From Falsarthrobacter nasiphocae (lineage in GTDB: Bacteria; Actinomycetota; Actinomycetes; Actinomycetales; Micrococcaceae), in NCBI RefSeq assembly GCF_031456275.1, contig NZ_JAVDUI010000001.1, forward strand, positions 1 through 64,000: a DNA stretch of 64,000 bases, given 5' to 3'. Position numbers and translations under genes: made by a program. Under the pieces are notes generated by a model that made no database searches, had not been told where the DNA came from, and was given only the letters and a program-made list of their open reading frames with translations. Positions 22,970 to 58,017 of the stretch are shown here, one piece after another. Position 1 is the stretch's first letter. The number at the start of each line of letters is the position of its first letter.

Positions 22970-23635
22970 TCAGACGCCCACGGCCGGAAGGCGCATCTTG
23001 CGGAACAGGATGGCCCTCTCGATGATGTAGCGGACGTCTCCCGGCTGCCGCGTCATCCCGGCGGCCGCCTGGCGGGCGCGGACCTGGCGCGTGAGGAAGA
23101 TGAACTCGACGATGATGACGAGCACGTAGGCGTAGAAGAACCAGCCAATCATGCGCTGCAGCTCGAGGTTGGAGGCGAAGACGAGGCTGACGACGAGGAA
23201 GGGCAGCGTGACGAACATGAGCAGCTCCGAGATGCGGAAGCGCTCGTCCACCACCTTGCGGATGAGGCGCCGATTGGGGCCGCGGTGCTTGAGCGGCAGG
23301 TGGCGCTCGTCGCCTGTCTTGAGGGCCTCGCGCATCTTCTCGGCTTCCCGGGCCCGGGCCTCGCGGCGCTGGCGCTTGGCCTCGTCCGGATCCGTCACGA
23401 GGGGGCGCTTGCGGGCGGCCTCCCGCTCCTTGCGCGTGGGCGTGCGCACGCCCTTCTTCTCCTGCGGGTGCCGCTGGCGCTGCGGCGCGGAGGGCTCCGT
23501 CTGCGCGGAGGCCACGGCCGGGGACGTGCCCGCGGAGGGGGCCGCAGGCGCGGCCGTGGAGCCGTGGGTCGCCGGAGTCGAGGGCTCGCTTTCGCTGGAG
23601 CCCGTCAGGTCAGGGGTCTTCTTCTGTCGGAACAC
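22970..23635 (-). CDS. DUF3043 domain-containing membrane protein
   Basis: 221-aa actinobacterial protein. A low-complexity N-terminus of about 55 residues and a very basic stretch (RPLVTDPDEAKRQRREARAR) lead to two membrane helices (ISELLMFVTLPFLVVSLVF and WFFYAYVLVIIVEFIFL). A short basic tail follows. Function unknown. The frame extends upstream, but on the minus strand TAGAAT (plus 23643-23648) lies exactly 7 nt before GTG 23635, and the in-frame ATG at 23644 is part of that -10 box, so the GTG is chosen. Translation is probably leaderless. Divergent from the dipeptidase. Confidence 0.8.
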   Translation of the reverse strand: MFRQKKTPDLTGSSESEPSTPATHGSTAAPAAPSAGTSPAVASAQTEPSAPQRQRHPQEKKGVRTPTRKEREAARKRPLVTDPDEAKRQRREARAREAEKMREALKTGDERHLPLKHRGPNRRLIRKVVDERFRISELLMFVTLPFLVVSLVFASNLELQRMIGWFFYAYVLVIIVEFIFLTRQVRARQAAAGMTRQPGDVRYIIERAILFRKMRLPAVGV

Positions 23636-23672
23636 CCTTCCCATTCTACCGCCGGCGGATACCCTGGGAGAC
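23636..23672. promoter_or_regulatory. Symmetric divergent leaderless promoter pair
   Basis: The 37 bp between the two start codons hold TAGAAT (minus strand, 23643-23648) and TACCCT (plus strand, 23660-23665), each 7 nt from its start codon and 11 bp from each other. Confidence 0.6.
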
Positions 23673-25103
23673 ATGACTCACTCTTCCTCTTCTGACCTCT
23701 CAGCGGCCCAGGCGCAAGAACTCGTGGACCGGGAGTTCGACTCTGTCCTGGCCGAGCTCAAGGACCTCGTGGCCATCCCGGGCATCGCCTGGGAGTCCTT
23801 CGATCCTGCTGATCTCGGGCGCTCGGCCGAGGCCGTCGCCGAGCTCGCGCGCCAGGCGGGTTTCAGCGACGTCGCCATCCACAGGGCCGAGACCACACTT
23901 GACGGCAAGCCGTTCACCGGCGGACCGGCCGTCATCGCGACGATTCCCGCGCCCGAAGGCGCACCGACCGTCCTCCTCTACGCACACCACGACGTCCAGC
24001 CGCCGCAGGACCGCGCGCTCTGGGACACCGAGCCCTTCGTGGCCACGGAGAAGAACGGCCGCCTCTACGGGCGCGGCGCCGCGGATGACAAGGCCGGGAT
24101 CATGGTCCACATCGCCGCCGTGCGCACCCTCCTCAAGCACTTCGGCGGTCGACTGCCCGTCGGCGTGACCCTCTTTGTCGAGGGAGAGGAGGAGGCGGGG
24201 TCCCCGACCTTCCGGGCCTTCCTCGACGAGCACCGGGACGAGCTCCGGGCGGACGCGATTGTCGTCGCCGATTCCAGCAACTGGGTGGTGGGCACCCCCG
24301 CCCTGACGACCTCCCTGCGCGGGCTCGTCGACGGTGTCGTTCGCGTGCGCGTTGCGGAGCACGCGTCCCACTCGGGCATGTTCGGCGGGCCGGTTCTCGA
24401 CGCGCTGACCGTGCTGGGCCGGGTCATCGCGAGCCTCCACGACGAGAATGGCGACGTCGCCGTCAAGGGACTCCACGTGCGGGAGGCGGAGGCGAGCGTC
24501 GAGTACCCAGAGGCGGACTTCGCTCGGGACGCCGGGCTGCTCGGCTCCTCCCGTCTCGCAGGCTCCGGCGCGCTGACCTCGCGCCTGTGGAACAAGCCCG
24601 CGCTCTCGGTCATCGGGATCGACGCTCCGAGCGTCGCTGTCGCGTCCAATACGCTCCTGAGCGAGGCACGGGCCAAGCTCAGCCTGCGGATCGCGCCGGG
24701 GGAGCGGCCTGAGCAGGCCATGAAGGCCCTCGCCGCCCACATTGAGGCGCTCGACGTCTTCGGTGCGGAGATTGCGTTCGAGCCGGGGGAGGCCGGGCAG
24801 CCCTTCCAGACGGACACCTCCGCGCCTTACGCGCAGACCATGCTGTCCGCCCTCGGGGAGGCGTTCGGAACCGATGCCGTCGAGACCGGCCTCGGCGGAT
24901 CCATTCCCTTCATTGCGGACCTCAAGGAGGTCTACCCGGCCGTCGAGATCCTCGTGACCGGCGTCGAGGACCCGGACTCTCGTGCTCACTCCGCGAACGA
25001 GTCCCTCGATCTCGGGGACTTCCGCAAGGCCATCGTCGCGGAGACGCTCCTCCTCGCGCGCGCTGCAAGCGTCCGGGAAGAATCGGGGCCTTCGGAGCGT
25101 TGA
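23673..25103 (+). CDS. M20/M25/M40 family dipeptidase
   Basis: Zinc-dependent exopeptidase. 476 aa; metal motif LLYAHHDVQPPQD near residue 105, RLYGRGAADDKAG near 135, the catalytic EGEEEAGSP, and a dimerisation lid with AEHASHSGMFGG. Similar to PepV/CPG2-like dipeptidases; substrate unknown. The frame stays open to 23151 antisense to DUF3043, but ATG 23673 has GGGAG upstream and TACCCT 7 nt before it, matching the family start. The next gene follows after about 70 nt. Confidence 0.9.
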   Translation: MTHSSSSDLSAAQAQELVDREFDSVLAELKDLVAIPGIAWESFDPADLGRSAEAVAELARQAGFSDVAIHRAETTLDGKPFTGGPAVIATIPAPEGAPTVLLYAHHDVQPPQDRALWDTEPFVATEKNGRLYGRGAADDKAGIMVHIAAVRTLLKHFGGRLPVGVTLFVEGEEEAGSPTFRAFLDEHRDELRADAIVVADSSNWVVGTPALTTSLRGLVDGVVRVRVAEHASHSGMFGGPVLDALTVLGRVIASLHDENGDVAVKGLHVREAEASVEYPEADFARDAGLLGSSRLAGSGALTSRLWNKPALSVIGIDAPSVAVASNTLLSEARAKLSLRIAPGERPEQAMKALAAHIEALDVFGAEIAFEPGEAGQPFQTDTSAPYAQTMLSALGEAFGTDAVETGLGGSIPFIADLKEVYPAVEILVTGVEDPDSRAHSANESLDLGDFRKAIVAETLLLARAASVREESGPSER

Positions 25104-55183: not shown

Positions 55184-56340
55184 CGGCGGTTCTCCGTGGT
55201 TGGGTTCGCTGTCGCGGGGGTGTGTGTGGCGGCTCGGACGTCGTCGGACGTGATGGCGAGGTCCTCGTGAGTCAAGATTCCCACGATTCGCCCGCCCTCT
55301 GCGACCGGGATGGCCCAGACGGCCTCCCGGGTGAGCGCCTCGACGGCTGCGGGCGTTCCGGCGGATCGCTCGACGCTCGGCCCGACAAGGCGCATCTCGT
55401 CAGAGGCGAGGGCGCCGGGAGCCGCGAACTCGTCGAGGCAGCCGACCGGGGCCCCCGACTCGTCCACGACGAGGAGGGCGCCGGTGCGGGCGGACGGGAC
55501 TCGGTCGGTGACCCGCACGGTGCCGGCGAGGGGGCGGGTCCGGGCGAAGACGTCCCATCGCTCCACGAAGTCGAGGACGGGGATCCTCTGGAGCTGCGAG
55601 AACGCCGAGTAGGCGATGAACCCTCCTGTGGCCAGGGCACCGAGGAACATCGACATCGGCGCGCCGACGAGGAGCAGCGTCAGGCTCGCGGCGAGGATGC
55701 CGGAGCCGATGACGATCCCGGCCCACGCGCTGGCAGCGGTTCCGGTCCGGCGGCGCCCCGTGGCCCGCCAGACCGCCGCTTCGACGATCTGGCCGCCGTC
55801 GAGAGGCATGCCGGGCAGAAGGTTGAACACGCCGAGGAGAAGATTGGACCAGACGAACGCCCACAGAAGGTCGGCGCCCAGGCTGGGGGCCCCGGACCCC
55901 AGCGCCCAGAGCACGAGCCACCCGGCGAGTGCCGCGAGGAGGTTGACGGCCGGGCCTGCGAGGGCGATCAACAGGAGGTCCCGGTTGCGCGGCCGTCGGC
56001 TCGCGGGTCCCGCGAGGTTCGTGTGCCCGCCGAGGAACGTCAGGACAATCCGCTCGCTGCGGTGCCCCACGCGGTTTCCGACGACGGCATGCGCCGCCTC
56101 ATGGATGAGGACCGAGACAAGAAGCACCGCGGCGTAGCCCGCCGCCAGCCCGTACCCGGCGGCGGCTCCCATCGAGGCGGCCAACCGCGGGCCGAGGACG
56201 ACGAGGACGATGGCGATGAGGACGAGCCAGGAATACCCGAGCACGACGGGCACGCCCCCGATCCGGCCAGCCGTGATGCCGGGCTCCGTCCGCGCGTGCG
56301 GCGGCGTTCGGGGGCGCTGTGGCTCGTCGGGGGGCGTCAT
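55180..56340 (-). CDS. Site-2 protease family (M50) metalloprotease with CBS-like region
   Basis: 386-aa intramembrane zinc protease. The catalytic HEAAHAVVGNRVG lies in an early membrane helix and NLLPGMPLDGGQ in a later one, together giving the His-Glu-His and Asp ligands. About six membrane helices are followed by a C-terminal cytosolic region with CBS-like segments (TGALLVVDESGAPVGCL, AIPVAEGGRIVGILTHEDLA). Family substrates are membrane anti-sigma factors or signal peptides; no partner is nearby. ATG 56340 overlaps the HAD stop by 4 nt. Confidence 0.88.
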   Translation of the reverse strand: MTPPDEPQRPRTPPHARTEPGITAGRIGGVPVVLGYSWLVLIAIVLVVLGPRLAASMGAAAGYGLAAGYAAVLLVSVLIHEAAHAVVGNRVGHRSERIVLTFLGGHTNLAGPASRRPRNRDLLLIALAGPAVNLLAALAGWLVLWALGSGAPSLGADLLWAFVWSNLLLGVFNLLPGMPLDGGQIVEAAVWRATGRRRTGTAASAWAGIVIGSGILAASLTLLLVGAPMSMFLGALATGGFIAYSAFSQLQRIPVLDFVERWDVFARTRPLAGTVRVTDRVPSARTGALLVVDESGAPVGCLDEFAAPGALASDEMRLVGPSVERSAGTPAAVEALTREAVWAIPVAEGGRIVGILTHEDLAITSDDVRAATHTPATANPTTENRR

Positions 56341-57032
56341 GGCGTCAGTGCCCGTCCGAGGTCCGCACAGGTGCGGCCTTCGAGGCCGTCCCACTCGATC
56401 CGGACCTCGCCCTCGGGGAGGGCCGCGTGGAGGGGCACGGCCACGGTGGTCAGCCCCGCGCTGGTCGCGGAGCAGTAGCCGGGCCAGGAGTCCTCGATGG
56501 CCACGCACTCGTCCTTGGCCAAACCGGGGGCGGTCTCGCTGAGCTCGAGGAAGCCGAGCTCGTACGCGTCCGGGGCCGGCTTGCCCTGCGCCACTCGGTC
56601 CCCCGTGACGACGGCCTGGAACGCGCCTGCCGGCATCTGCGCGAGGACGACCTCCGCGAAAGGGCCCTCGCTCATCGTCACGAGGGCGCACGGGATCCCG
56701 AGCTCGCGGGCCTCTGCGAGGAGCTCCCGCGCCCCGGGGCGCCACGGGACGCCGGCCGCGCACTGCTCCACGACGCGCCTCGTCAGGGTGTCGATAATCT
56801 CGCGCACGGACAGGTCGATCCCGTGTCTCTGAAGGATCGCCGCGGAGGTCGGCAGGGCCTGACCCACGAGCTGGATCGCGTCCTCGGAGGTCCACGTGAG
56901 CCCGAAGCGCTCGACGAGCTCCCGCTCGGCCGTCATCCAATACGGCTCCGAGTCGATGATGGTTCCGTCCATGTCCCACAGAATCGCGGCAGGGAGGCGA
57001 GTGGTCGGCGCGGCATCAGGGGAAGCAGACAT
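56337..57032 (-). CDS. HAD family hydrolase (beta-phosphoglucomutase-like)
   Basis: 231 aa. Motif I is ILWDMDGTIIDSEPYW with the two catalytic aspartates, motif II is CALVTMSE, motif III is GKPAPDAYELG and motif IV is AIEDSWPGYCSATSAG. The helical cap between motifs I and II is type C1. Substrate unknown. First gene of the operon reaching to pafA. The start is set by TAGACT (minus strand; AGTCTA 57040-57045) 7 nt before ATG 57032, with no Shine-Dalgarno; translation is probably leaderless. Confidence 0.88.
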   Translation of the reverse strand: MSASPDAAPTTRLPAAILWDMDGTIIDSEPYWMTAERELVERFGLTWTSEDAIQLVGQALPTSAAILQRHGIDLSVREIIDTLTRRVVEQCAAGVPWRPGARELLAEARELGIPCALVTMSEGPFAEVVLAQMPAGAFQAVVTGDRVAQGKPAPDAYELGFLELSETAPGLAKDECVAIEDSWPGYCSATSAGLTTVAVPLHAALPEGEVRIEWDGLEGRTCADLGRALTP

Positions 57033-57069
57033 GAAACCCAGTCTACGGTTCGCACCTAAGCTGGAGTGT
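57033..57069. promoter_or_regulatory. Symmetric divergent leaderless promoter pair, HAD and PAC2
   Basis: 37 bp between the two start codons. TAGACT (minus strand, 57040-57045) and TAAGCT (plus strand, 57057-57062) each lie 7 nt from their start codon and 11 bp from each other, the same geometry as at 23636-23672. Confidence 0.6.
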
Positions 57070-58017
57070 ATGACCGACACCCCTGACCGCCACGAGCCCG
57101 CCACCCTGATGCGCGCCCTGGGGACCATGGCCGCCTCTCGGGGAGAGAACCCGGACGCGGCGAAGACGGTCCTCCTCATCGCGTTCCGCGGCTGGAATGA
57201 CGCGGGCGAGGCCGCCTCGAGCGTTCTTCGCAGGGCGCGCACGGCAGCCAACGCGCCCCTCGTCTCAGCCGTGACGGACGAGCGATTCTATGACTACCAG
57301 GTGCTGCGGCCCCGCGTCTCGCGCTCGTCCTCGGGCGAGCGCAGCATCCGCTGGCCCGGGGTCCGGTTCTACGACGTGGGCACGGGCGCCGGGCGCGACC
57401 GCGTCATCGTCGCCTACGGGCACGAGCCGAGCTTCGCATGGCGGACGTTCGCCGAGCGCGTCATGGCCTTCACGGCGGCCGAGGGCGTGGATGCTGTGGT
57501 CCTCCTCGGTGCGATGCTCGCGGACGTCCCGCACTCGCGGCCGTTCCCGACCATCATGACGACGGAGGATGAGCGCCTCGGCACGCTCATGGGCCTCGAT
57601 GCCTCCACGTACGAGGGCCCCACAGGCATGCTCGGCGTGCTGAGCTCGACGTTCGCACGCCATGGCGTCCCCGCCCTCTCCGCGTGGGTGTCAGTCCCCC
57701 ACTATGTGAGCCAGTCCCCCTCCCCGAAGGCGCAGCTGGCGCTTGTCGGCGCGCTGGAGGAGATCTTCGGCGTCGTCCTCCAGGACGCCCAGCTCGTCGA
57801 CGAGGCTGAGGCGTGGGAGCGCAACGTCGAGGAGCTCGCCGAGAACGACGAGGACATCCGCGAGTACGTCCGCCGCCTCGAGCGCACCGTCGACGCCGCC
57901 GTCGAGGCCTCCGCCTCGCTCCCCGAGGTCTCGGGGGACGTCATCGCGGAGGAGATCGAGACGTTCCTGCGCTCCTACGGCTCAGGAGAGGACGACGACG
58001 GGGCCGCCCGGACCTAG
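57070..58017 (+). CDS. PAC2 family protein
   Basis: 315 aa; the PAC2 fold named after eukaryotic proteasome assembly chaperone 2 but widespread in archaea and actinobacteria. Features: [81 protein letters not shown] (split by its length) and an acidic C-terminal helix. Actual function in bacteria is unknown. It is divergent from the pupylation operon. TAAGCT lies 7 nt before the ATG, and GGAG also precedes it. Overlaps the mshC tail by 4 nt. Confidence 0.85.

Follow-up and report, generated by a model that had tools for sequence, protein, structure and literature searches.

The original study of bidirectional promoters with –10 symmetry is reportedly that of Warman et al. 2021. The available text of a later account defines a bidirectional promoter by a shared –10 element with divergent starts on either side, 7–25 bp from each other (PMC10268837), and in E. 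coli, according to the accessible part of another paper, overlap of the two promoters prevents simultaneous polymerase binding and activating one direction tends to repress the other (PMC12825309). In M. tuberculosis, a TANNNT box lies 7–12 bp upstream of the start site with no –35 motif, roughly one gene in four is leaderless, with transcription starting at the start codon, and a figure legend calls closely juxtaposed divergent promoters common (PMC3898074, available portion).

In the window, which is the whole stretch of 64,000 nucleotides of Falsarthrobacter nasiphocae DNA that we analysed, an earlier note had described two intergenic regions of 37 bp, each with two opposed –10 boxes 7 nt from divergent start codons and 11 bp between the boxes. 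We found this arrangement at both places, 57033–57069 and 23636–23672. Read on the forward strand, the HAD/PAC2 site is CAT-GAAACCC-AGTCTA-CGGTTCGCACC-TAAGCT-GGAGTGT-ATG and the DUF3043/M20 peptidase site is CAC-CCTTCCC-ATTCTA-CCGCCGGCGGA-TACCCT-GGGAGAC-ATG, and both have the geometry 7+6+11+6+7 (Table 1). Pfam matches agree with the gene names that had been given (HAD, PAC2, DUF3043 and dipeptidase, that is, M20), and the layout supports the description of symmetric, leaderless, opposed promoters with no room for a separate upstream element. The GTG start of DUF3043 is well placed because relatives with both boxes have a GTG in the equivalent position, 6–7 nt after the box.

Table 1. Features of the two divergent intergenic regions in the window.
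Feature	Position	Strand	Basis and conservation
DUF3043 gene	22970..23635	-	GTG start 23635-23633; Pfam DUF3043 1.2e-35
DUF3043 leader, 7 nt between –10 box and start codon	23636..23642	-	GGGAAGG read on -; sequence
DUF3043 –10 box TAGAAT	23643..23648	-	sequence; TAGAAT in 3/3 species of genus
Box-to-box gap, 11 bp, CCGCCGGCGGA	23649..23659	.	11 bp in 3/3 species of genus; 12 bp in two g27 species
M20 peptidase gene –10 box TACCCT	23660..23665	+	sequence; congeners TAGGCT and TAGGGT
M20 leader, 7 nt between –10 box and start codon, GGGAGAC	23666..23672	+	sequence
M20-family peptidase (dipeptidase) gene	23673..25103	+	Pfam Peptidase_M20 1.4e-29
HAD-type hydrolase gene	56337..57032	-	ATG start 57032-57030; Pfam HAD_2 1.5e-23
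HAD leader, 7 nt between –10 box and start codon	57033..57039	-	GGGTTTC read on -; sequence
HAD –10 box TAGACT	57040..57045	-	sequence; retained in congeners and, with different spacings, in most relatives
Box-to-box gap, 11 bp, CGGTTCGCACC	57046..57056	.	length 11 in 3/3 species of genus; letters not retained
PAC2 gene –10 box TAAGCT	57057..57062	+	sequence; TAAGCT in both congeners, mostly TAGGGT in relatives
PAC2 leader, 7 nt between –10 box and start codon, GGAGTGT	57063..57069	+	sequence
PAC2 family gene	57070..58017	+	Pfam PAC2 3.8e-42

At both HAD/PAC2 and DUF3043/M20, a TANNNT box lies 6–8 nt before the ATG or GTG and is retained in relatives. We used a simple coding score to collect 111 leaderless candidates from 864 kb of the genome (the 64-kb window and 40 stretches), a sample that is not random for the third site described below because one stretch was placed to contain that site. 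The 92 candidates with better boxes showed no –35 signal: nowhere between –45 and –2, counted back from the box, did the information reach 0.1 bit. When the genes lie apart in relatives, we saw by eye no –35 motif at the HAD promoter (gaps of at least 40), and a conserved stretch 20–29 bp before the PAC2 box does not resemble a –35 hexamer. The earlier note had put each –35 region inside the start of the opposite gene; a spacer of 17 bp would instead place the –35 hexamers in the opposite 7-nt leaders, and there is no –35 motif anyway. We also considered whether –35 elements explain the gap itself. The arithmetic fits, with the 17-bp spacer made up of the 11-bp gap and the 6-bp opposite box and the –35 in the opposite leader; however, we rejected this explanation for the lack of any –35 preference in the leaderless promoters of the genome or in the spread relatives.

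If the boxes were not the promoters, transcription would start inside the neighbouring genes and yield mRNAs with leaders. The presence of GGAG in the PAC2 and M20 leaders, two of the four, speaks for this reading. However, the GGAG is not retained and leaves only 2–3 nt to the start codon, and each box stays 6–8 nt from the orthologous start throughout the family even as the DNA separating the boxes changes; we regard leadered messages as improbable.

In named actinobacteria (mostly Arthrobacter), 72 of 80 PAC2 loci have a divergent HAD neighbour, and the usual boxes at these 72 loci are TAGACT for HAD and TAGGGT for PAC2, each leaderless. Both boxes occur within 150 bp at 36 of the 72, where the start distance is 58–149 bp; at the other 36 they do not both fall within that distance. 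Within the family, both boxes are present at 26 of 30 HAD/PAC2 loci (four were unscorable for boxes), and the start distance is 37 bp in F. nasiphocae and its congener G002 and 52–219 bp in the other 24. At DUF3043/M20, where 25 of 30 family loci have both boxes and five were unscorable, the start distance is 37 bp in two, 36 bp in a second congener, G001, 40 bp (gap 15) in one and 54–135 bp in the other 21, and two species of g27, another genus of the family, have a start distance of 36 bp and a gap of 12 at this locus. Each box seems to work alone, because relatives retain the HAD and PAC2 boxes and the DUF3043 GTG when the genes are farther apart, and the compaction of the two loci is recent and derived in the genus, because elsewhere in the family the boxes are usually tens of bp apart.

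Among the spread HAD/PAC2 relatives (Arthrobacter-like), the conserved stretch that precedes the PAC2 –10 box by about 20–29 bp has a consensus near ATTCCATGCA. No such stretch is found at the compact F. nasiphocae locus, and it could be a regulator site lost during compaction. Two database records also drew our attention. The HAD/PAC2 locus of a record titled Vibrio cholerae strain 35D (L057, WNZI01000004.1:81104-84913) closely resembles those of Arthrobacter agilis-type genomes, and the assembly therefore appears to be mislabelled or contaminated. In a record titled Streptomyces sp. NP160 (L047, NZ_VDMJ01000002.1), PAC2 is 47% identical to the query and ranks beside Quadrisphaera (48%), and both of these PAC2 loci are without a HAD neighbour; this record is possibly misnamed.

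Within the genus, proteins are only 57–61% identical, yet the gap is 11 at HAD/PAC2 and DUF3043/M20 in all six species-loci (three species). Both loci are 7/11/7 in G002, and in G001 both have a start distance of 36 bp with the gap unchanged at 11. As a control, we followed another compact pair of the genome, at 79757, whose gap is 20 in F. nasiphocae and 27 in G002 and is thus not kept (one case, with the 27 read by eye). These comparisons bear on plain compaction, in which a small genome deletes intergenic DNA down to the –10 boxes and leaders, and the common 11 reflects coincidence and shared ancestry without functional coupling. The wider separation of the boxes in relatives, mostly 52–219 bp at the two loci, suits this explanation, since it makes the compact form derived in the genus; the retention of gap 11 in three species although a leader shifts, and the loss of the gap of 20 in G002, argue against it.

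To place the two sites in the whole F. nasiphocae genome (2,195,465 bases), we scanned for the pattern CAY-N7-ANNNTA-N11-TANNNT-N7-RTG and found exactly three sites, compared with none for the reversed control and with 0.02 expected from base composition (P of at least three, 1.4e-6). The proposal that the 37-bp pattern is enriched genome-wide thus survived the scan. The idea of an identical 37-bp module stood in part: the module recurs, but 37 bp is not the unit, as the start distance is 36 bp in G001 and 35–37 bp at the compact third locus. When the leaders were fixed at 7/7 and gaps of 0–30 were scanned, only gap 11 occurred, three times. With other leader lengths, we found further compact divergent pairs with gaps of 6, 6, 12, 16, 18, 19, 20, 20, 23, 25 and 27, of which several are probably chance and several real, because the reversed controls also gave matches (4+4 and 3+2). 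Apart from the pair at 79757, compact pairs of this kind lie at 454475, 724138, 810497, 933727 and 1054277. Since the same genome has compact gaps of 6–27 bp, 11 is the commonest gap but neither the sole nor an obligatory one. Given one locus at 11, the probability that at least two of 8–11 others are also at 11 is 0.026–0.047 if gaps are uniform on 0–30, and the clustering within the genome, taken alone, is weakly significant. Both this weak significance and the existence of other compact gaps favour plain compaction.

When we scanned 197 family genomes, the 7/11/7 pattern was present in 79, compared with 13 for the reversed control (the 13 counted by hand). We fetched 20 of the matches: 16 are the third locus, two are the HAD/PAC2 and DUF3043/M20 loci of G002, and the remaining two, which are not flanked by long genes on each side, appear to be chance matches. 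When the boxes were strict and the leaders 7/7, these genomes had gap 28 as often as gap 11 (by hand count, 11 and 9 of the 63 sites), and loci with gaps of 4, 5, 10, 12, 13, 20 and 28–29 are common to several congeners. Compact leaderless pairs with gaps of 28–29 are shared by several congeners in genera g32, g13 and g10, and 28–29 is possibly a second favoured spacing. Two near-perfect 36-bp palindromes (G116:C3:414499-414534 and G171:C1:283099-283134) match the two-box pattern with a gap of 4; these are perhaps a repeat or hairpin and not promoters. We also considered a strict forbidden zone at gaps of 13–25, into which only 2 of 188 rows pooled from the three loci fall (one G001 DUF3043/M20 locus was entered twice, as L203 and L262, and the named and unnamed collections may have species in common), but the same genome has gaps of 16, 18, 20, 20 and 23 and the family scan has gaps of 13–22, and we rejected it.

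The third 7/11/7 site is at 1443050 of the F. nasiphocae genome, between genes for a penicillin-binding protein and a DUF4177-like protein. The transglycosylase/penicillin-binding protein matches Pfam Transgly (1.8e-59), and the transpeptidase match of the fragment, at 20.4 bits, is below the cut-off of 22.1. The small partner has 51 residues and a DUF4177 match of 23.8 bits, slightly under the Pfam cut-off of 25; a DUF4177-like small gene is present in 61 of 61 family genomes. We measured the spacing in the 59 family genomes in which both starts were available (two fetched stretches were without a recognised partner) and found that the start distance is 37 bp in 26, 36 bp in 13, 35 bp in 3 and 47–199 bp in 17, and that the gap between the boxes is 11 in 38, 10 in 2, 12 in 2, 21 in 1 and 38–174 in 16. 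The locus is therefore compact (gap 10–12) in 42 of 59 genomes and in 23 of 32 genera, with a gap of exactly 11 in 38 of the 42. The leaders range from 6 to 8 nt while the compact gap holds at 10–12 bp, and the tight quantity is the box gap rather than the start distance, because the gap clusters at 11 while the distance takes values of 35–37. A spacing of 11 bp is thus favoured, but other gaps occur in the F. nasiphocae genome. That the gap is 10–12 in 42 of 42 compact genomes, from 23 genera, speaks against plain compaction, which we consider a possible but doubtful account of the spacing.

We placed the 59 rows on a protein tree that was built by a quick method and in which many forks are weak. 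On it, the 42 compact rows, which are related by descent and do not count as independent events, require at least four gap changes, each by 1 bp, against at least three and at least six changes of the two leaders, so that the leaders change more often than the gap. There are at least four switches between the compact and the spread state. The 17 spread rows require at least 15 gap changes, a contrast with the compact rows that overstates the per-base difference because longer spread gaps give more sites for insertion and deletion. Outside the family, we found no compact third locus: among 29 loci from an order search, 6 are divergent with both boxes and have gaps of 43–540, 13 are without both boxes within 600 bp and 10 are without a recognised penicillin-binding protein nearby, and with 16 further stretches the third-locus rows with both boxes came to 8 in all, none of them compact. 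Within one genus of the family, the gap is 21 in one species (L192, G012) and 11 in another (L196, G041), a difference of 10 bp, or about one helical turn. Helical phasing as the basis of the spacing was set aside, with the gap of 21 (11+10) in one genome as its single case.

At the third locus, conserved letters adjoin the boxes. This would suit an operator in the 11-bp gap for a single regulator of both genes, and a fixed spacing could house a dyad site. However, the inner sequences vary from locus to locus and, at each locus, from species to species, and no shared dyad was seen among them. We rejected a shared operator because the inner sequences differ, and consider a single regulator of this kind very unlikely.

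Taken together, these data suggest that each 37-bp region probably holds two superimposed, opposed, –10-only leaderless promoters that are mutually exclusive and whose gap of 11 bp (10–12) is selected. Each promoter would consist of one TANNNT –10 box 6–7 nt before the start codon, without a –35 motif. The housekeeping (SigA-type) RNA polymerase would read each box and begin transcription with the A or G of the start codon, so that the mRNAs would lack a 5' leader. By arithmetic from the predicted start, a promoter's own box occupies –13 to –8, and the elements of the opposite gene follow at –30 to –25 (box), –37 to –31 (leader) and –40 to –38 (start codon), with 38 bp between the two predicted start sites. 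The upstream contacts of polymerase (about –37 to –14) would cover the opposite box and leader; because the promoter contacts overlap (~37 bp), two polymerases should not bind together, and the two genes should compete for one landing place. In the compact state, the gap of 11 (10–12) bp would be maintained by selection. Our best guess for the value of 11 is that shrinkage of the DNA between the genes has stopped at the length of one promoter, with the upstream contacts of polymerase ending where the opposite coding sequence begins, a guess undercut by the absence of a –35 sequence preference of any kind.

A classic bidirectional promoter, in which a single symmetric –10 element serves both strands, would also yield two divergent transcripts, and according to the accessible text of PMC12825309 and PMC10268837 short symmetric DNA is a widespread source of divergent transcription. 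However, there are two separate boxes here, 11 bp apart, and the predicted starts, at 38 bp, are outside the 7–25 bp definition and away from the optima of 18, 10 and 23 bp, and we find a single symmetric element scarcely credible.

Should two superimposed promoters be the right reading, the unit of two –10 boxes and a gap, without a –35 element, leader or ribosome-binding site, may be the smallest natural two-way gene-driving unit. More tentatively, superimposed leaderless pairs might be a distinct architecture in the family, in which a selected spacing of 11 bp (±1) sets the competition between polymerases and couples otherwise unrelated housekeeping genes; if this is true, the coupled pairs are a cell-wall synthase and a DUF4177-like protein, HAD and PAC2, and DUF3043 and a dipeptidase. 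If the gap is selected, competition between polymerases at divergent promoters can be tested directly with the gaps of 10, 12, 21 and more that occur naturally at one orthologous locus, and these variants would help in designing compact two-way promoters for bacteria of high GC content.

Compared with the leaderless TANNNT promoters of M. tuberculosis, the F. nasiphocae promoters have the same type of box and likewise no –35 motif; in contrast, two are superimposed in F. nasiphocae with a gap of 11 bp, and the available portion of PMC3898074 gives no such spacing rule. Another system, of minimal –10-only leaderless expression, has the same minimal form, and the main text of its paper uses neither "divergent" nor "bidirectional". 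We found no description of an 11-bp spacing rule in the accessible text of the open-licence literature. As in the bidirectional promoters of E. coli and Salmonella, a short piece of DNA would drive both strands, and in those species opposing polymerases exclude each other, so that the two directions compete (PMC12825309; PMC10268837, available text). In contrast to their shared or interlocked –10 elements and starts 7–25 bp apart (18 being commonest), F. nasiphocae has separate boxes and predicted starts 38 bp apart. On predicted starts, the F. nasiphocae pairs are thus outside, but adjoining, the published definition of a bidirectional promoter. Their parts are ordinary, and their spacing is real, recurrent and conserved: they are a tight variant of known divergent promoters.
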